A DNA stretch of 35,673 nt from Chloroflexota bacterium (lineage in GTDB: Bacteria > Chloroflexota > Anaerolineae > Anaerolineales > Villigracilaceae), in the NCBI GenBank assembly GCA_026390015.1, contig JAPLGS010000154.1, positions 1-35,673 on the forward strand. The letters are read 5' to 3'. This document shows positions 24,341 through 35,491 of this stretch, in pieces. The translations under genes were made by a program, and so were the position numbers. A model generated the notes under the pieces. It saw nothing but the letters and a program-made list of their open reading frames with translations. It had not been told where the DNA came from and searched no databases. The first letter of the stretch is position 1; every line of letters begins with the position of its first letter.

Positions 24341-25030
24341 TTACTTAGATTCAATGAGTAGCGTGCGGACTGCGTCCAAGTCTATCTGGCTTAAGCCGCC
24401 TGAAAGGAGGTAGTCGTCAATATTGAGTGATGCGAGGATGGAGAGGATGACTTCGCGGGTGGTGGTGTGTCTAGCCGCCAGAATTTCTTCGCGTACAGGG
24501 TCAACACTTAATTCGTAATCGGCAAGGATGTCATCTGCTGAAACGCCAGCGAGTGCAAGTAATAACAAGGCAATGATTCCGGTTCGATCGTATCCGCGCT
24601 TGCAATGGAATAAGACTCCGCCGGGTTGAGCCTGTGCAATAGCCTTGATCACTGCAATATGCCGTTCGGGCCAGCGTTTGAGGGCGTCACTGTAGTATAG
24701 AGGTGTGCACCATAGGTCTGTATCAACCCATTGTTTTATAAACTCGGCATCGGTAAAGTCCTCAATGGCTGCTTCGATGCCAGTGATGTCCGCCAGCCGC
24801 GGAGTGGTATCGAGATAATCTTCTTCAACCAGCCCATGTGTACGTAATGAAATAATGGTGCGGATGCCGTGCGCATGGAGTTGTGACCAACCGTCCGCAG
24901 TGAGTTTGGCAGGATGGTCGGAGCGAATGACTGCACCCCAACGGGTCTTGTTTCCAGTAGATGTGGTCAAGCCGCCGAGGTCTCGGACGTTGTTACAGCC
25001 ATCCCATATCAAAACTCGATTTGAAGTCAT
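24341..25030 (-). CDS. Tyrosine-protein phosphatase (Y_phosphatase3 type)
   Basis: A 229-residue phosphatase of the Y_phosphatase3/DSP-like family. Opening motif NVRDLGGLTTSTGNKTRWG with the family's R-D-L-G-G, then VIRSDHPAKL, and the P-loop FHCKRGYDRTG with C143 and R149 in C-x5-R spacing. No signal peptide or membrane segment, so cytoplasmic. Intact catalytic residues, unlike the phosphatase-like domain at 32449-34065. It lies 27 bases before gatB. It might act on lipids or phosphotyrosine; the hydrolysed substrate cannot be told from the sequence. Confidence 0.85.
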   Translation of the reverse strand: MTSNRVLIWDGCNNVRDLGGLTTSTGNKTRWGAVIRSDHPAKLTADGWSQLHAHGIRTIISLRTHGLVEEDYLDTTPRLADITGIEAAIEDFTDAEFIKQWVDTDLWCTPLYYSDALKRWPERHIAVIKAIAQAQPGGVLFHCKRGYDRTGIIALLLLALAGVSADDILADYELSVDPVREEILAARHTTTREVILSILASLNIDDYLLSGGLSQIDLDAVRTLLIESK

Positions 25031-30539: not shown

Positions 30540-30620
30540 CGAGGGCGCTAGCCTGAAGTAATCTTCGTGTTGAATTGGAGATTGCTTCGTCGGGCTAAAG
30601 CCCTTCTCGCAACGACATGT
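30540..30620. repeat. REP-like palindrome upstream of aspS
   Basis: TTGCGAGGGCGCTAGCCTGA and GGGCTAAAGCCCTTCTCGCAA form the ends of a palindrome enclosing CGTGTTGAATTGGAGATTGC: the common 'ttgcgagg...cgaagcaatctc' dispersed element. With the hairpin at 30636-30665 it accounts for most of the 320-base gap 30483-30802, in which I see no gene. Confidence 0.7.
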
Positions 30621-30635
30621 GGTGTAGATAAAATA

Positions 30636-30665
30636 AATCGCCCTTCGCGTTTGCGTCGGGCGATT
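30636..30665 (-). terminator. Terminator after the protein kinase gene
   Basis: AATCGCCC and GGGCGATT pair around an inner CGC-GTTT-GCG stem. On the - strand the stem is followed by TTTATTTTATC, a fair U-tract, and it lies about 140 bases past the kinase stop. On the + strand it is followed by GGTTTTGACTT. Confidence 0.6.
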
Positions 30666-30802
30666 GGTTTTGACTTGAGTTATTTGTCAACCAGCAAAGT
30701 TTCGCCCAACGATAGGGGAATCGTCTTTATTATTATCGTTTGCGAAGTTGAGTCTGGGTTGCATGCTGGCGGTATTATAGCACAAGTGTCGAAATCCTCA
30801 CT

Positions 30803-31744
30803 TTAGATAAAACTTTTAGCCTCCTTGGTAAAATCTCGAATTAAATGATCTGTAATTTGGTATCGGTCTTTAGGATTATTCTCAATGCAGTGTAATAAAA
30901 TTTTATCAAAAACCTTGGGCAGATAGGGATTTAGCTCACTTGCCAATTTTGGATTGGGAGTCGCCTTCGTCGAAATATTTTTTCCCTCTGAGTGGTTTGC
31001 AACATTTATATTATTTTGATATGCTGTTGGATGGAACTCTGTTAATAATTCGTACAACAAAATTCCAAGAGAATAAATATCCAGGGTTGGTTCTGCCAGG
31101 ACTGGGTTATTGTAGCTTTGAAGCGCTTCGGGAGCCATGTAGCCTATTGTGCCCCCAAGAATAGGGGTATTTATGGGTCTGATTAAACCAAAATCTATCA
31201 GTATTAAATTTTGATTTATAGAAATGATGTTATTTGGCTTTAGGTCGCAATAGACATAACCCTTATTATGAACGTATCCGAGTACATCGCAGATCTGTTC
31301 CAATATACTCAGCGTCTCTTTTATGGAGAATGTTCTGTTTTTGTGTAGGATTTCCTTCTCCAAAGTGATGTTTTCCAGAAAATCCAAAACTATATAAGGT
31401 CGTTCGGCAGTCAGATTGTAATCGCGCAGGTGAATAATATTTGGATGGTGGCATGACTCTAGGAATTTGACTTCCTGGGTAATGAATTCATGCGCTTTTG
31501 CAATCTCATGGTTGGGGGACCCCGGAATTATTCCATCTTTGTTGTCAATAACTTCTTCCGGGTCGTCGACATACTCTGTCAGCAGGATTTTGATGGCCAC
31601 TTTCGAATTGTTAAATTTATCAATAGCTTTAAATATTTCTGACGTGCCGCCTTTACTTAAACGCGCAATGACTCGATATCGTTGGGAAATAAATTTGTCG
31701 ATCTCGCCATTATAAATATTTTGATCTTTGAGGAAACTAACCAT
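30803..31744 (-). CDS. Soluble Hanks-type serine/threonine protein kinase
   Basis: A 313-residue kinase domain with no membrane segment or sensor domain: the chain ends shortly after the kinase fold. Key residues: glycine loop LSKGGTSEIFKA, ATP lysine K52 in VAIKILL, catalytic loop GYVYCDLKPNN with D167 and N172, metal-binding IDFGLIR (D184), and activation/APE segment GGTIGYMAPEAL. The usual HRD reads YCD, so the Arg is absent (non-RD kinase), which suggests it does not need activation-loop phosphorylation. A longer insert (YVDDPEEVIDNKDGIIPGSP, about 58-77) follows the lysine strand. Substrate unknown; a Tyr phosphatase and a Forkhead-type partner are not adjacent. Confidence 0.9.
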   Translation of the reverse strand: MVSFLKDQNIYNGEIDKFISQRYRVIARLSKGGTSEIFKAIDKFNNSKVAIKILLTEYVDDPEEVIDNKDGIIPGSPNHEIAKAHEFITQEVKFLESCHHPNIIHLRDYNLTAERPYIVLDFLENITLEKEILHKNRTFSIKETLSILEQICDVLGYVHNKGYVYCDLKPNNIISINQNLILIDFGLIRPINTPILGGTIGYMAPEALQSYNNPVLAEPTLDIYSLGILLYELLTEFHPTAYQNNINVANHSEGKNISTKATPNPKLASELNPYLPKVFDKILLHCIENNPKDRYQITDHLIRDFTKEAKSFI

Positions 31745-31815
31745 TTTATTTTTCAGCCAATTTGAAGTATAAATACCATATGAGAAATTGCCTAATTTTC
31801 CCTATTGTAACCGAA

Positions 31816-32445
31816 TCATCCCTGATTTGTCTTGCTTTGCTCACGCCATGCCGTGGATCGAATCCCATAGATCGCCCGATCGTAAATAAATTCACCGACT
31901 ACTTCCTTATTGGGTTGTGTCACATGCAGGCGATATCCCAAACGTTCCGGGATGGCGCGGCTGCGTTGATTATTCACCGCACACCCAATTACAAATCTTT
32001 GGATATCCATTTCATTAATTGCGTAATCCATTAATGCGCTGACACAGCGTGTGACGATTCCCTTGCCCTCATGTTCTTCCGTGATCCAATAGCCAAATTC
32101 GAGCGCAGTAGAACTATCTTCCAATCGTGACATCATAATGATCCCAGCCAGTTCATCATGAAACCAAATCTCCAAGTCAAGCGGACGGTGGGCAGGCGGG
32201 AAATATGACTCCAACTCAGCATAGTATTTATCAAGCTCGCTGGATCCAAACGGATTACCGTAATAACTAAAAAGGCAGTTGATCGTAAATAACCGAGTAT
32301 CTTTAGTTGTCTCAGGCAGGGAACTTGGATCAACCCACGGGCGGAGGCGCGAACGATTCCGCTCCATAAGATTGAAAAGCGCTTCGGCATCATCGGGATG
32401 TATATTGCGTAAATGAATCTCCTTGTCAATTTTCAGACTGAACAT
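31816..32445 (-). CDS. GNAT-family N-acetyltransferase (RimJ/RimL-like)
   Basis: A 209-residue GNAT protein. Opening IHLRNIHPDDAEALFNLMER and RLRPWVDP, then DLEIWFHDELAGIIMMSRLE, the acetyl-CoA-binding WITEEHEGKGIVTRCVSALM (the EGKGI corresponds to the Q/R-x-x-G-x-G/A loop) and IQRFVIGCAVNNQRSRAIPE. A stretch of about 25 residues (LFSYYGNPFGSSELDKYYAE) is longer than in RimJ/L. Its ATG is 3 bases after the stop of the phosphoribosyltransferase fusion gene, so it is coupled to it. Substrate unknown. Confidence 0.85.
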   Translation of the reverse strand: MFSLKIDKEIHLRNIHPDDAEALFNLMERNRSRLRPWVDPSSLPETTKDTRLFTINCLFSYYGNPFGSSELDKYYAELESYFPPAHRPLDLEIWFHDELAGIIMMSRLEDSSTALEFGYWITEEHEGKGIVTRCVSALMDYAINEMDIQRFVIGCAVNNQRSRAIPERLGYRLHVTQPNKEVVGEFIYDRAIYGIRSTAWREQSKTNQG

Positions 32446-32448
32446 AAT

Positions 32449-34065
32449 TTATTCTTCCAGTTTCCAGTTCAGGATGAATTGCCGCTGTTCTTCGCTCAAC
32501 GGAGAATGAATCAGATAATGCAATGTCTTCATCCAGAACACATCCACTTTAGACAGTGCCTTTTTTGCCGAATAGCTGCGCTCGATCAACAAACAGGCGA
32601 GGATTAGCGGCGTGCGTCCCTCAAGGTTATGACCAGCATGGATATAAACGCGATGTCCTTGTTTGAGCGCGCGCGCAACATATTTCAGCGTATTCCGAAC
32701 TTGCAAACCCGAATGAGCCGCTTGAAACGCCAGGGGAAAATGTTGGATCTCGACTTTCTTTTTCATATCACGGCTAACTTGTAGTAATGTCTTGCGATAC
32801 GAAAACTTCCGATGCGCTTCTGATGGAATGGTCAGATCTACAAAGTGGGAGATCCCTTTGTTTAACAGATCCTTGAATAATTCCTCATTTGAGTTCCTGG
32901 CTAAAATTGGATAAGCTCCGGTCCAAATTTCGCCCGGCAGGAATTCAGCGAAGCCATGTGTCTGCTCTGGGGTGGTATTGACTCTGATCCATGATCTAAA
33001 TGAGTCTGCCGGAAAGTAAATGACATTGGGTCTTTGTCCGTGAGTTTGCCAGTCACGTTCCGCTTTCACATTATTCAATCCCTTTTTTATTTGCTTTGGA
33101 TCGGCTCCATAGATCTGGATAATATCCGCTTTGACGACTCCACCCTGTCCCCATCCTCTTGCTAAAAGATGTTCTTCGGCGCTAAGAGACAAGTGCGTGA
33201 TCGACATAAAATGCGTCATATCCTCTTCTGGTTCGACTGCCTCGTCGTCTTTTATTTCGTTCCGCAAGCGACGCAGGGCATAATTGCAGGCAAGGTCTTT
33301 TGCCCACTGCGGTGCGGATAATGCAACTTCAGCGGGAATATACTCCGCTATCGCTTTGACCGCTGCAGATTCTTGTGTGATCAATTTCCAGTCGAGACTG
33401 TTTTGCGCAATGTCTTCTGTCCCGTTGATCAATGGCTTGAGGATTTCCTGCCACGCGCTGCCAAAACGGACCTTGGACGTATTAATCCCGTTCTCAAGGA
33501 TCTCTTTTGCAAGAGGCGGTATAAACTCCGCGAGCCAGCCGGTGACAAAATTATCCGTCAGATCACTTCCACCTGTAAAAATATAAGCTTCGATGTTGGG
33601 GTAAAGATTATCCAACAGACCCAGAATCATATAACCTGAAAGATAAGTTCCAAAAAGATCATCCACGACGAGAACGCGCTTTGGCCTTGATGGAAGAACC
33701 GAGCTGATCTGCTTGCGCAGCATTTTCTGCCACTGGCGTTGTTCCGCGACCCAGGCAAGAAAATGACCTCGGCCTTCATTTCCCCAGCAGCATTCTCCGC
33801 AGCAAAACGCTGGGAGTGATTTCCCATACTGCGCGTGATACATTGCATATTTTTCTTGACCGATATTCGTGCGCATGGATGGAGGGAATGACGCGCTTCT
33901 GGTCTCCGCCCATAAAATTTGCGCCACGACAACCGGCGCCCAGCCTGAGTGCGCGAGTCCGATGATGACATCCGGCTGAAATTTTTCAATTTCAGCGCAG
34001 ATGTTTTTTCCCAGCTGATATAGAGCTTCAAGCGTGGAGAGTGTGGCTTGTGGATATGATGGCAT
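32449..34065 (-). CDS. Phosphoribosyltransferase-like / pseudo-tyrosine-phosphatase fusion
   Basis: A 538-residue two-domain protein. The N-terminal half resembles a type I phosphoribosyltransferase: DVIIGLAHSGWAPVVVAQIL (PRTase start) and the PRPP motif RVLVVDDLFGTYLSGYMIL with D135-D136. Four cysteines (AFCCGECCWG, 87-94) lie in an insertion and could bind metal. The C-terminal third (from about 368) resembles a dual-specificity phosphatase: EIWTGAYPIL and the P-loop-like VYIHAGHNLEGRTPLILACL. The catalytic Cys is Ala (477), with one residue extra before R484, so it should be inactive. It is coupled to the downstream GNAT gene. I know of no characterised protein with this arrangement. Confidence 0.72.
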   Translation of the reverse strand: MPSYPQATLSTLEALYQLGKNICAEIEKFQPDVIIGLAHSGWAPVVVAQILWAETRSASFPPSMRTNIGQEKYAMYHAQYGKSLPAFCCGECCWGNEGRGHFLAWVAEQRQWQKMLRKQISSVLPSRPKRVLVVDDLFGTYLSGYMILGLLDNLYPNIEAYIFTGGSDLTDNFVTGWLAEFIPPLAKEILENGINTSKVRFGSAWQEILKPLINGTEDIAQNSLDWKLITQESAAVKAIAEYIPAEVALSAPQWAKDLACNYALRRLRNEIKDDEAVEPEEDMTHFMSITHLSLSAEEHLLARGWGQGGVVKADIIQIYGADPKQIKKGLNNVKAERDWQTHGQRPNVIYFPADSFRSWIRVNTTPEQTHGFAEFLPGEIWTGAYPILARNSNEELFKDLLNKGISHFVDLTIPSEAHRKFSYRKTLLQVSRDMKKKVEIQHFPLAFQAAHSGLQVRNTLKYVARALKQGHRVYIHAGHNLEGRTPLILACLLIERSYSAKKALSKVDVFWMKTLHYLIHSPLSEEQRQFILNWKLEE

Positions 34066-34657
34066 AATAGCGCTTCCAGAGCGCTTCCTCCTCCTGTTCT
34101 GGCTACTTGGCTCATCCGCCCGTATTTGAGCGGTAAACGAAGATTATCATGCTATTTTACTCTCATCTCATAATTACCCGGGAGCAGGATGGCGGGCAAA
34201 ATCCTTCTCTGTCTACAAGAGCGCATCAAACTCTGGATAAAAAAATATGCGAGATCGAATTATTTGCAGGAGTTGAATTGATCGTCCGACAAAATTTCCG
34301 CCCAAAATTCCAAAAAAACCTGACGGATGAAGCAAGTAGCCAACTTAGATGGCTGAGATATTGTTCACCGCTGAAGGTGTGGAGTCGGCTGGCTTGGGAG
34401 GAACAGGTGTGTCGGTCGGTGTTTTTGGCAGGAGAGCTGGTATAGATAAAACAATTCTCGACCGACACATTGATGGTCTGCTTTGGGGGATCAAATGACT
34501 TGTTCATTGGATGAGGTTGAAAGAACTGTTGGTTTAACAGAAGTATCAATGAGGCTTAGGTAAATTCCCTTCAACCAGAGCGCGATTGGCGTTATTGCTT
34601 TACAGCGACGGTTAAATTTAGGCAAACTTTCTAAAATCCCGTTTTCGTAAATTGTCA
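34066..34657. other. Gene-poor stretch with a short Pro/Thr-rich reading frame
   Basis: No convincing gene. The only notable frame is on the - strand at 34345-34470 (41 codons, from ATG): after a hydrophobic start it reads LLPKTPTDTPVPPKPADSTP then SAVNNISAI. Pro/Thr-rich linkers of this sort are common in Chloroflexota surface proteins, so it may be the remnant of one. The bases just upstream of 34065 probably hold the promoter of the fusion gene. Confidence 0.4.
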
Positions 34658-34681
34658 CTATTTCTGAAGCAGTGACAATTT
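34649..34681. terminator. Hairpin with T-run
   Basis: AAATTGTCACT and AGTGACAATTT form an 11-base perfect stem with an 11-base loop, followed by TTC. It overlaps the stop codon of the sigma-factor fragment. Confidence 0.5.
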
Positions 34682-34921
34682 TTCAATATCCATTTGTTCA
34701 AGAAGATGAGATAAGCGTTCCACGTTTTCGCTTGCTTGAATCGCATCAAGCAGGTCGGGGTCAGCAGACGGATGTTCATCCAATGGAACAGAAATACGCT
34801 GGCGCTGGAAATCCACCAGCCTGCAGCGGACGATGGTAAACAGCCAGGCTGGGAAACAGCCGTTTTCTTTGTAACGGTTTTTTCTTAGCCCAATGAGCGT
34901 TTCGATAAATGTCTGCTTGAA
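34658..34921 (-). pseudogene. Internal fragment of an ECF sigma factor
   Basis: Eighty-seven codons in one frame starting FKQTFIETLIGLRKNRYKEN, then CFPAWLFTIVRCRLVDFQRQ (typical sigma region 2), a linker, and LSHLLEQMDIEKLSLLQK just where region 4 would begin; then TAG. There is no start codon, and the N-terminal part of region 2 and all of the region 4 DNA-binding helix are missing. It begins directly after the VanZ gene's stop (TAA-TTC), so the junction looks like a recombination point. Confidence 0.75.
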
Positions 34922-35491
34922 TTACATTCGCTCAGACATGGAAAGCTCAGCGGGCTGTGTTTGGCTTGCAACATTGTGGATATATGTCAGCAGACCTTTG
35001 TGATTGATATCGAAACGATGGGTTATTTTCAGGTACAGGCATGCAAAAATTCTGAAGATGCCGTATCCGAGCAGAACCCCCGTGGCATTCAACAATACAT
35101 CTGTTATGTCAACAGTGCGATAGACGCCCACTCCCAGAGAAATCACAAGTTGAGCAATCTCAATCGTAAGTCCAACTACAATCGCCAGCCAAAGAAAGTC
35201 TCTTGCCTTGAATTGGGCGATAAAAGAAACTCCAAAACCGAAAGGAATGGTTAAAAGAATGTTCTGAAAGATTTCCCGGAAAATAATATGGGGATCGACA
35301 TAGGGGTCGCTCAGATATTTGAAAGGTACAAAGTTTATATGCGAGAGAACGAATGTGATTTCTTGTTTTGTCAGAAATATCCCCGCATCGGGAAGCGGAA
35401 TTGGAAAAATCGTCACGCTGACAAGGATCAGAAGGTATACATAGAACGCAGAGAAAAAGAAAAGGTATGAAGGACTATGCTTTCGACTCAA
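34922..35491 (-). CDS. VanZ-like membrane protein (5' end doubtful)
   Basis: VanZ-like family: about 189 residues with four or five membrane segments (YLFFFSAFYVYLLILVSVTI, NILLTIPFGFGVSFIAQF, FLWLAIVVGLTIEIAQLVI, LLGYGIFRIFACLYL), and the hallmarks NFVPFKYL and TVDITDVLLNATGVLLGYG. VanZ-like proteins are linked to glycopeptide tolerance in some bacteria, but most are of unknown function. The only start in frame is a TTG at 35491 without a ribosome site. Upstream, the same frame encodes another membrane helix (FALLIGIAILIVLFPILL) that ends at a stop, and an ATG at 35547 is out of frame by one base, so the gene has probably lost one base just after its true start. Confidence 0.72.
   Translation of the reverse strand: MSRKHSPSYLFFFSAFYVYLLILVSVTIFPIPLPDAGIFLTKQEITFVLSHINFVPFKYLSDPYVDPHIIFREIFQNILLTIPFGFGVSFIAQFKARDFLWLAIVVGLTIEIAQLVISLGVGVYRTVDITDVLLNATGVLLGYGIFRIFACLYLKITHRFDINHKGLLTYIHNVASQTQPAELSMSERM

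Follow-up and report, generated by a model that had tools for sequence, protein, structure and literature searches.

The stretch of DNA analysed here (35,673 nucleotides from an uncultured member of the Chloroflexota; referred to as the window) carries on its minus strand an open reading frame at positions 32449–34065 that begins with ATG and encodes a protein of 538 aa. All features of this gene given below are on the same strand. The protein starts with a domain resembling phosphoribosyltransferases (PRTases; residues 1–272, positions 33250–34065), which comprises a core at about residues 10–165 and a family-specific remainder. A probable winged helix-turn-helix (about residues 290–364, positions 32974–33198) comes next and is followed by a pseudo-DSP domain, that is, a dual-specificity phosphatase (DSP) fold lacking its catalytic residues (residues 375–536, positions 32458–32943). 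A full-length homologue of 542 aa (L033) is encoded in another genome. When the window protein was scanned against Pfam, sub-threshold DSP matches were obtained in the C-terminal part and no meaningful match in the remainder. The predicted structures were of low confidence (mean pLDDT of 53.6 for the full-length protein and 55.4 for the N-terminal domain). Immediately downstream are the genes for a GNAT acetyltransferase (209 aa; 31816–32445, minus strand) and a Ser/Thr protein kinase (313 aa; 30803–31744, minus strand). Upstream of the fusion gene, at about 34650–34930 on the minus strand, inspection by eye revealed sequence similar to the terminal part of ECF sigma factors, albeit without a full open reading frame. 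The window also contains a second gene of the tyrosine phosphatase type (24341–25030, minus strand; Y_phosphatase3, 9e-38), located between the genes for GatB and an EamA transporter; its loop, HCKRGYDR, is apparently intact.

The C-terminal domain is a DSP fold, as judged from both sequence and structure. Its best Pfam match was to PF22785 (Tc-R-P; E-value of 1.5e-5, 26 bits in the window protein and 25.1 bits in L033), followed by PF22784 (PTP-SAK; 16.6 bits), all under the 27-bit cut-off. A profile built from the three fused proteins described below matched a solved DSP at 1.1e-7, and all six Foldseek matches at E≤0.001 to the low-confidence full-length model were PTP/DSP structures. The catalytic HCx5R loop of active DSPs is absent. 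Instead, the protein displays HAGHNLEGRT at residues 476–485 (positions 32611–32640), in which Ala477 occupies the position of the nucleophilic Cys and six residues rather than five separate it from Arg484, while His476 and the Arg484–Thr485 pair are retained (HAx6R). This is as the earlier note had read it, including the single inserted residue. The general acid has been lost as well. The column occupied by Phe447 (positions 32725–32727) holds Phe in L033 and Ser in the third fused protein, L023, and Asp in all 35 distinct sequences of the single-domain cousins, where we take it to be the DSP general acid. The domain has thus lost both its nucleophile and its acid, and the claim of a dead phosphatase stands. 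The earlier note considered that the fold could bind a phosphorylated ligand; the Glu and the additional residue within the altered loop weaken this idea and make simple binding of phosphate less certain.

Two further proteins share the fused architecture. L033 (CAIVSQ010000544.1) is identical to the window protein at 275 of 533 aligned residues (52%), and its loop reads HAGHNLEGRT, embedded in a run of 15 identical residues, VYIHAGHNLEGRTPL. Over this run 10 of the 15 codons differ between the two genes, all synonymously. Within the DSP domain 72 of 160 alignment columns are identical (45%), the 15-residue run being the longest, and a run of this length arose in only 7 of 20000 column shuffles of the domain. 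L023 (564 aa, genome G244) is far more divergent, with 24% identity over window residues 12–534; its C-terminal domain aligns at 5e-11 and its loop, LTGSYGYE, has no Cys. An intact C-x5-R motif, the presence of which in homologues the earlier note would have taken as a sign of a sequence error in the window, is therefore lacking from both of the other fused proteins. Since the altered loop is shared with L033 despite changes in two thirds of the codons, it is neither an error nor a product of decay, and a frameshift can be dismissed on the same grounds. Its retention in a distant relative makes it look like a working part of a sensor, and the pattern of codon changes indicates that it is kept by selection. 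The fusion may have a single origin, although the family tree lacks resolution at the L023 branch.

Intact phosphatase motifs were seen only in the single-domain cousins, which are present in most genomes of the genus. In the sample of 57 genomes from the genus, 51 matched the L033 protein, only three of them (G000, which is the window's own genome, G008 and G036) at its N-terminal half. We collected 44 loci from the better-scoring matches alone, several of which represent the same gene; 42 contained a cousin open reading frame, and the motif H-C-x-x-G-x-G-R was kept at every one of these (35 distinct sequences). The other two were L005, which reads HCYGGIGRT, and L046, a fragment of the N-terminal half.

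Two explanations bear directly on the altered domain. The first is that the fusion is decaying and functionless. Consistent with this, resemblance to the fusion gene ends at about residue 195 in the G008 copy, and the G036 copy is in pieces. However, the window gene and L033 are both intact, and between them pN amounts to only 0.26 in the PRTase-like, 0.43 in the middle and 0.39 in the DSP region, against a saturated pS of 0.75–0.82; furthermore, it is precisely the altered loop that lies in the longest identical run. We consider decay very improbable. The second is that the loop is still catalytic, for example with His479 acting as the nucleophile. His476, His479 and Arg484 are indeed identical in both intact copies, but the acid Asp is gone, L023 possesses neither an equivalent of His479 nor the Arg, and we know of no PTP-fold enzyme that works with a His nucleophile in this way. 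There is accordingly very little to recommend a catalytic role.

The N-terminal half belongs to a protein family for which Pfam has no model. No match to PF00156 (Pribosyltran) at E≤1 was found in the window protein or in 13 of 14 relatives scanned, the remaining one, L085, scoring 12.4 bits against a cut-off of 26.3. In an alignment of 15 family members, ten residues are invariant: Leu37, His39, Trp52, Pro61, Gly69, Glu71, Lys72, Trp105, Asp135 and Pro156. His39 belongs to the segment IGLAHSGW (residues 35–42, positions 33940–33963), which aligns with the pyrophosphate-binding loop of a PRTase, whereas Gly69, Glu71 and Lys72 are found in NIGQEK (residues 67–72, positions 33850–33867). A further motif, GTED (residues 215–218, positions 33412–33423), contains a nearly invariant Gly215–Thr216 pair. 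The cysteine-rich insert of the earlier note corresponds to PAFCCGECC (residues 85–93, positions 33787–33813); it has four Cys in the window protein and L033 and two in L034, and is not a family-wide trait. The Asp pair expected for binding of phosphoribosyl pyrophosphate (PRPP) was likewise found, as Asp135–Asp136 of the PRPP-type loop VLVVDDLFGTYLSG (residues 131–144, positions 33634–33675).

Relationship to PRTases was assessed by local profile alignment (hhalign) of the family with nine PRTases from the same genome, the 23 other proteins of the window serving as controls. With a profile of seven sequences, all nine PRTases (scores of 17.4–33.4) exceeded every control (maximum of 16.8). The phosphate loops were in register in eight of them, Asp135 falling on the first residue of the D/E-D/P pair of the PRPP loop in seven and the pyrophosphate loop being aligned in one; the exception, L072, was aligned at neither loop. 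With 15 sequences, PRTases and controls again differed (U-test, p of 1.1e-5) and all nine were in register, albeit L072 (17.2) scored below the best control (18.8). Profile searches of the PDB returned mostly PRTases, although the matches were weak (17 of 28, the best at 0.024; 6 of 10 in another search, the best at 0.0085). In a Foldseek search with the low-confidence domain model, PRTases occupied ranks 1–11 and accounted for 36 of the best 50 chains, none of them at E≤0.001. The best VIA-align Z-score was 8.1, to HGXPRT, on a scale where a value below 8 may reflect no more than a shared arrangement and where 7–8 is typical of the best score obtained without a clear match. Profile scores, loop register and fold rankings, none of which is decisive alone, together favour the assignment proposed from the sequence, and the N-terminal half likely has a PRTase fold.

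Could the domain be an active PRTase, acting on some acceptor, with the dead DSP as the adaptor through which a phosphorylated protein or other substrate is recruited? The PRPP loop of active type I PRTases combines an acidic pair with T-G-x-T. Gly-x-Thr is found in 10 of the 15 aligned sequences, for example in DDAYVTGST and DDAYFTGFT, and His39, Glu71, Lys72 and Asp135 are invariant in all 15; His39, Lys72 and Asp135 would also suit an enzyme. In the branch that contains the fusion (window protein, L033 and L034), however, the loop reads DD(L/I)FG(T/G)Y(L/R)S, with Tyr in place of the usual Gly and Ser in place of Thr, so that DDLFGTYLS of the window protein has the Asp pair and departs from T-G-x-T. 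Moreover, the middle region resembles a DNA-binding fold, and no biosynthetic partner gene is shared among the homologous loci. We therefore regard an active enzyme as possible, if on balance rather unlikely.

In ten family members the middle region shows a pattern resembling a helix-turn-helix, after which there may be a wing. Its profile matches in the PDB were mainly to the penicillinase repressor, proteins of the MarR and IclR types, CRP, Z-DNA-binding domains and eS25, all of which we take to be winged-helix folds. The E-values of the winged-helix matches were marginal, the exceptions being a repeat protein and one eS25. The repeat protein was the top match, with no single stretch passing on its own, and unrelated proteins occurred among the best 60 of 85 matches. 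The region is probably a winged helix. Together with the PRTase fold of the N-terminal half, this assignment is supported but not settled.

In order to see how widely the PRTase-like family is distributed, several overlapping sets of genomes were searched. Members were found in 7 of 400 genomes of the order (one of which, in G243, is weak and contains an internal stop), in 7 of 396 genomes of the class, the latter with a later and larger profile, in 2 of 121 and 1 of 38 genomes of two families of the window's order, in 3 of 46 genomes of the order of G1090 and in one of three of the family of G850. Within the genus there are three among 57 genomes, the window copy alone being intact. A search across the phylum with the earlier profile had retrieved only the window's own genome among 400; set against the later figure for the class, this suggests that the first draw or the first profile under-reported the family. 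A contig pattern scan for the N-terminal half yielded 131 stretches, four of which were confirmed, and the named relatives came from uncultured Anaerolineae, uncultured Chloroflexi and Anaerolineaceae metagenome-assembled genomes (MAGs). The family was seen only in Chloroflexota in these searches, which beyond the phylum covered that one contig scan, plasmids, phages and viral contigs.

The C-terminal ends vary. Among the 14 members whose C-termini were read (window, L033, L023, L035, L036, L026 and L081–L088, where L035 and L036 are the same genes as L022 and L024), three carry a DSP-like domain and the other 11 have no Pfam PTP match. L084 and L082 possess long, different ends, and L085 and L086 stop shortly after the core. 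Genome G873 encodes three tandem paralogues with different C-terminal ends (L089, 5716–10490). In addition, a 144-aa open reading frame without a Pfam match (L092, 11886–12320) groups by blastp with the family near the main G850 member, and a related unannotated protein of 171 or 181 aa is encoded beside both family genes of G265 (L036, 9157–9672; L093, 7727–8272). One member is preceded on a single strand by genes for HSP70, an OmpA-like protein (just under the cut-off), an AAA ATPase and Cas_NE0113-GerE (L036, 922–8864), a possible stress or conflict cluster.

Such features raise the question of whether the gene is an accessory of conflict or defence, its PRTase-like core making or sensing a nucleotide and its variable C-terminal domain acting as effector or reader. 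PRTases have been proposed in conflict settings (PMC5512222), and the patchy distribution, the differing C-terminal ends, the tandem paralogues and the locus beside the Cas_NE0113-GerE, AAA ATPase and HSP70 genes would all be compatible with such a role. Against it, neither the window protein nor any of four relatives matched a PADLOC model, and the N-terminal half was not matched in phages, in viral contigs (pattern scans, which detect close relatives only) or in plasmids. Nor is any effector or nuclease gene shared by the neighbourhoods of the 13 compared loci. We judge this explanation unlikely. In the plasmid search the phosphatase half alone was matched, in two Picosynechococcus plasmids, and a search of PHROGs gave one weak match for the window protein (E-value of 0.015), to a family of unknown function. 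A mobile or phage origin was rejected, given that the searches of phages and plasmids, and the viral-contig scans with their reach limited to close relatives, gave no match to the N-terminal half.

The earlier note had also coupled the fusion gene to its GNAT neighbour and proposed a unit for modification of nucleotides or of a cell signal. The physical coupling is real: the GNAT gene is on the same strand and its ATG (position 32445) lies 3 bases past the stop codon of the fusion gene. A functional partnership did not hold up. Near relatives of the GNAT (E≤1e-15) are present in only 2 of the 57 genomes of the genus, and an all-against-all blastp comparison of open reading frames from 13 loci (E≤1e-4) placed neither GNAT nor kinase at any of the 12 other homologue loci; a separate reading of six homologue loci, overlapping with the 12, also contained no GNAT. 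The only groups of neighbours outside the family across the 13 loci were three large NTPases and the 171/181-aa protein, and the NTPases are otherwise dissimilar (AAA alone; AAA with a cyclase domain; AAA/NB-ARC/TPR).

The sister genome G008 is informative in this respect. GNAT and kinase remain together there, with 90–92% DNA identity to window positions 30606–32478, and the fusion gene is absent from the site except for 27 tail-like bases; the gene upstream of the GNAT encodes a response regulator that includes an HD domain. The 30 bases before the GNAT start in the window (32446–32475, minus strand), which consist of 27 bases of the gene tail including its stop codon and the 3-base gap, match G008 at 28 positions. 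The first 195 codons of the fusion gene are found on another G008 contig among different genes. The tail remnant and the displaced 195-codon piece suggest that the gene probably once lay beside the GNAT in both genomes and was broken in G008, and the adjacency may therefore predate the split of the two species. The scar itself (L079, 1468–1500, corresponding to window 32446–32478) directly follows the response-regulator/HD-domain gene and constitutes a traceable rearrangement; the break could conceivably reflect an error of MAG binning, although both contigs continue past it. The GNAT was rejected as a partner on account of the G008 pair without the fusion gene and of the other homologue loci. 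Evidence for a modification unit was not encountered, the probable winged helix pointing to regulation instead. Despite the short gap, the common strand and the possible age of the arrangement, we give such a unit hardly any credence.

A more instructive comparison is with PurR of Bacillus, which couples a winged helix to a PRTase-like domain that has no enzymatic activity and binds PRPP and (p)ppGpp (PMC8789054). The window protein likewise combines a PRTase-like domain and, here probably, a winged helix in one chain, and in PurR the PRTase pocket has been reused for sensing (PMC8789054). Differences are also apparent. The domain order is opposite, the phosphate loops are divergent, a pseudo-DSP domain has been added, and the N-terminal Pfam family of PurR, PF09182 (PMC8789054), was not among the Pfam matches obtained here. 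Type I PRTases such as HGPRT, XPRT and OPRT align at both phosphate loops (pyrophosphate and PRPP) and provide the best fold matches, but the window protein differs from them by the His in its first loop, by its NIGxEK and GTED motifs and by having no PF00156 match. For the C-terminal domain, the closest parallels are STYX and MK-STYX, in which a DSP fold has its catalytic Cys replaced and its Arg kept (PMC8622459). These are animal proteins, as are the pseudophosphatases that we found named in that review, whereas the present protein is bacterial, has a loop longer by one residue, has lost the acid Asp and is fused to a PRTase-like domain. Compared with PF22785 and PF22784, the domain is without the catalytic Cys, and no toxin context was seen. 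The literature on pseudophosphatases that we found is mainly eukaryotic, and no open-access paper was found on a PRTase–phosphatase fusion, a search for PRTases with a pseudophosphatase leading only to work on Toxoplasma GRA44.

The PurR domain pair, here in reverse order and with its loops altered, suggests a DNA-binding regulator that responds to a ligand. The explanation that we tentatively put forward, with somewhat less than even confidence, is that the fusion gene encodes a one-component, non-enzymatic regulator similar to PurR. Its PRTase-like domain would bind PRPP or another nucleotide and would modulate the winged helix in the middle of the chain, which in turn would bind DNA. Like the corresponding fold of STYX-type proteins (PMC8622459), the dead DSP fold may serve as a docking or ligand-binding module and would thereby add a second input.

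A bolder possibility, which we hold to be quite unlikely, is that the family represents a new class of nucleotide-sensing regulators in Anaerolineae, in which a PRTase-like sensor and a winged helix are combined with exchangeable C-terminal readers, the reader of one branch being a dead phosphatase that recognises a phosphorylated molecule or protein. The protein provides a bacterial pseudophosphatase whose missing nucleophile is a feature conserved between two genomes, and 35 distinct cousins that retain the Cys are available for comparison. The PRTase-like family, being without a Pfam model and having varied C-terminal ends, offers a natural series for learning what its core senses. If the proposed regulator class is real, a single protein would integrate nucleotide supply with a phospho-signal.
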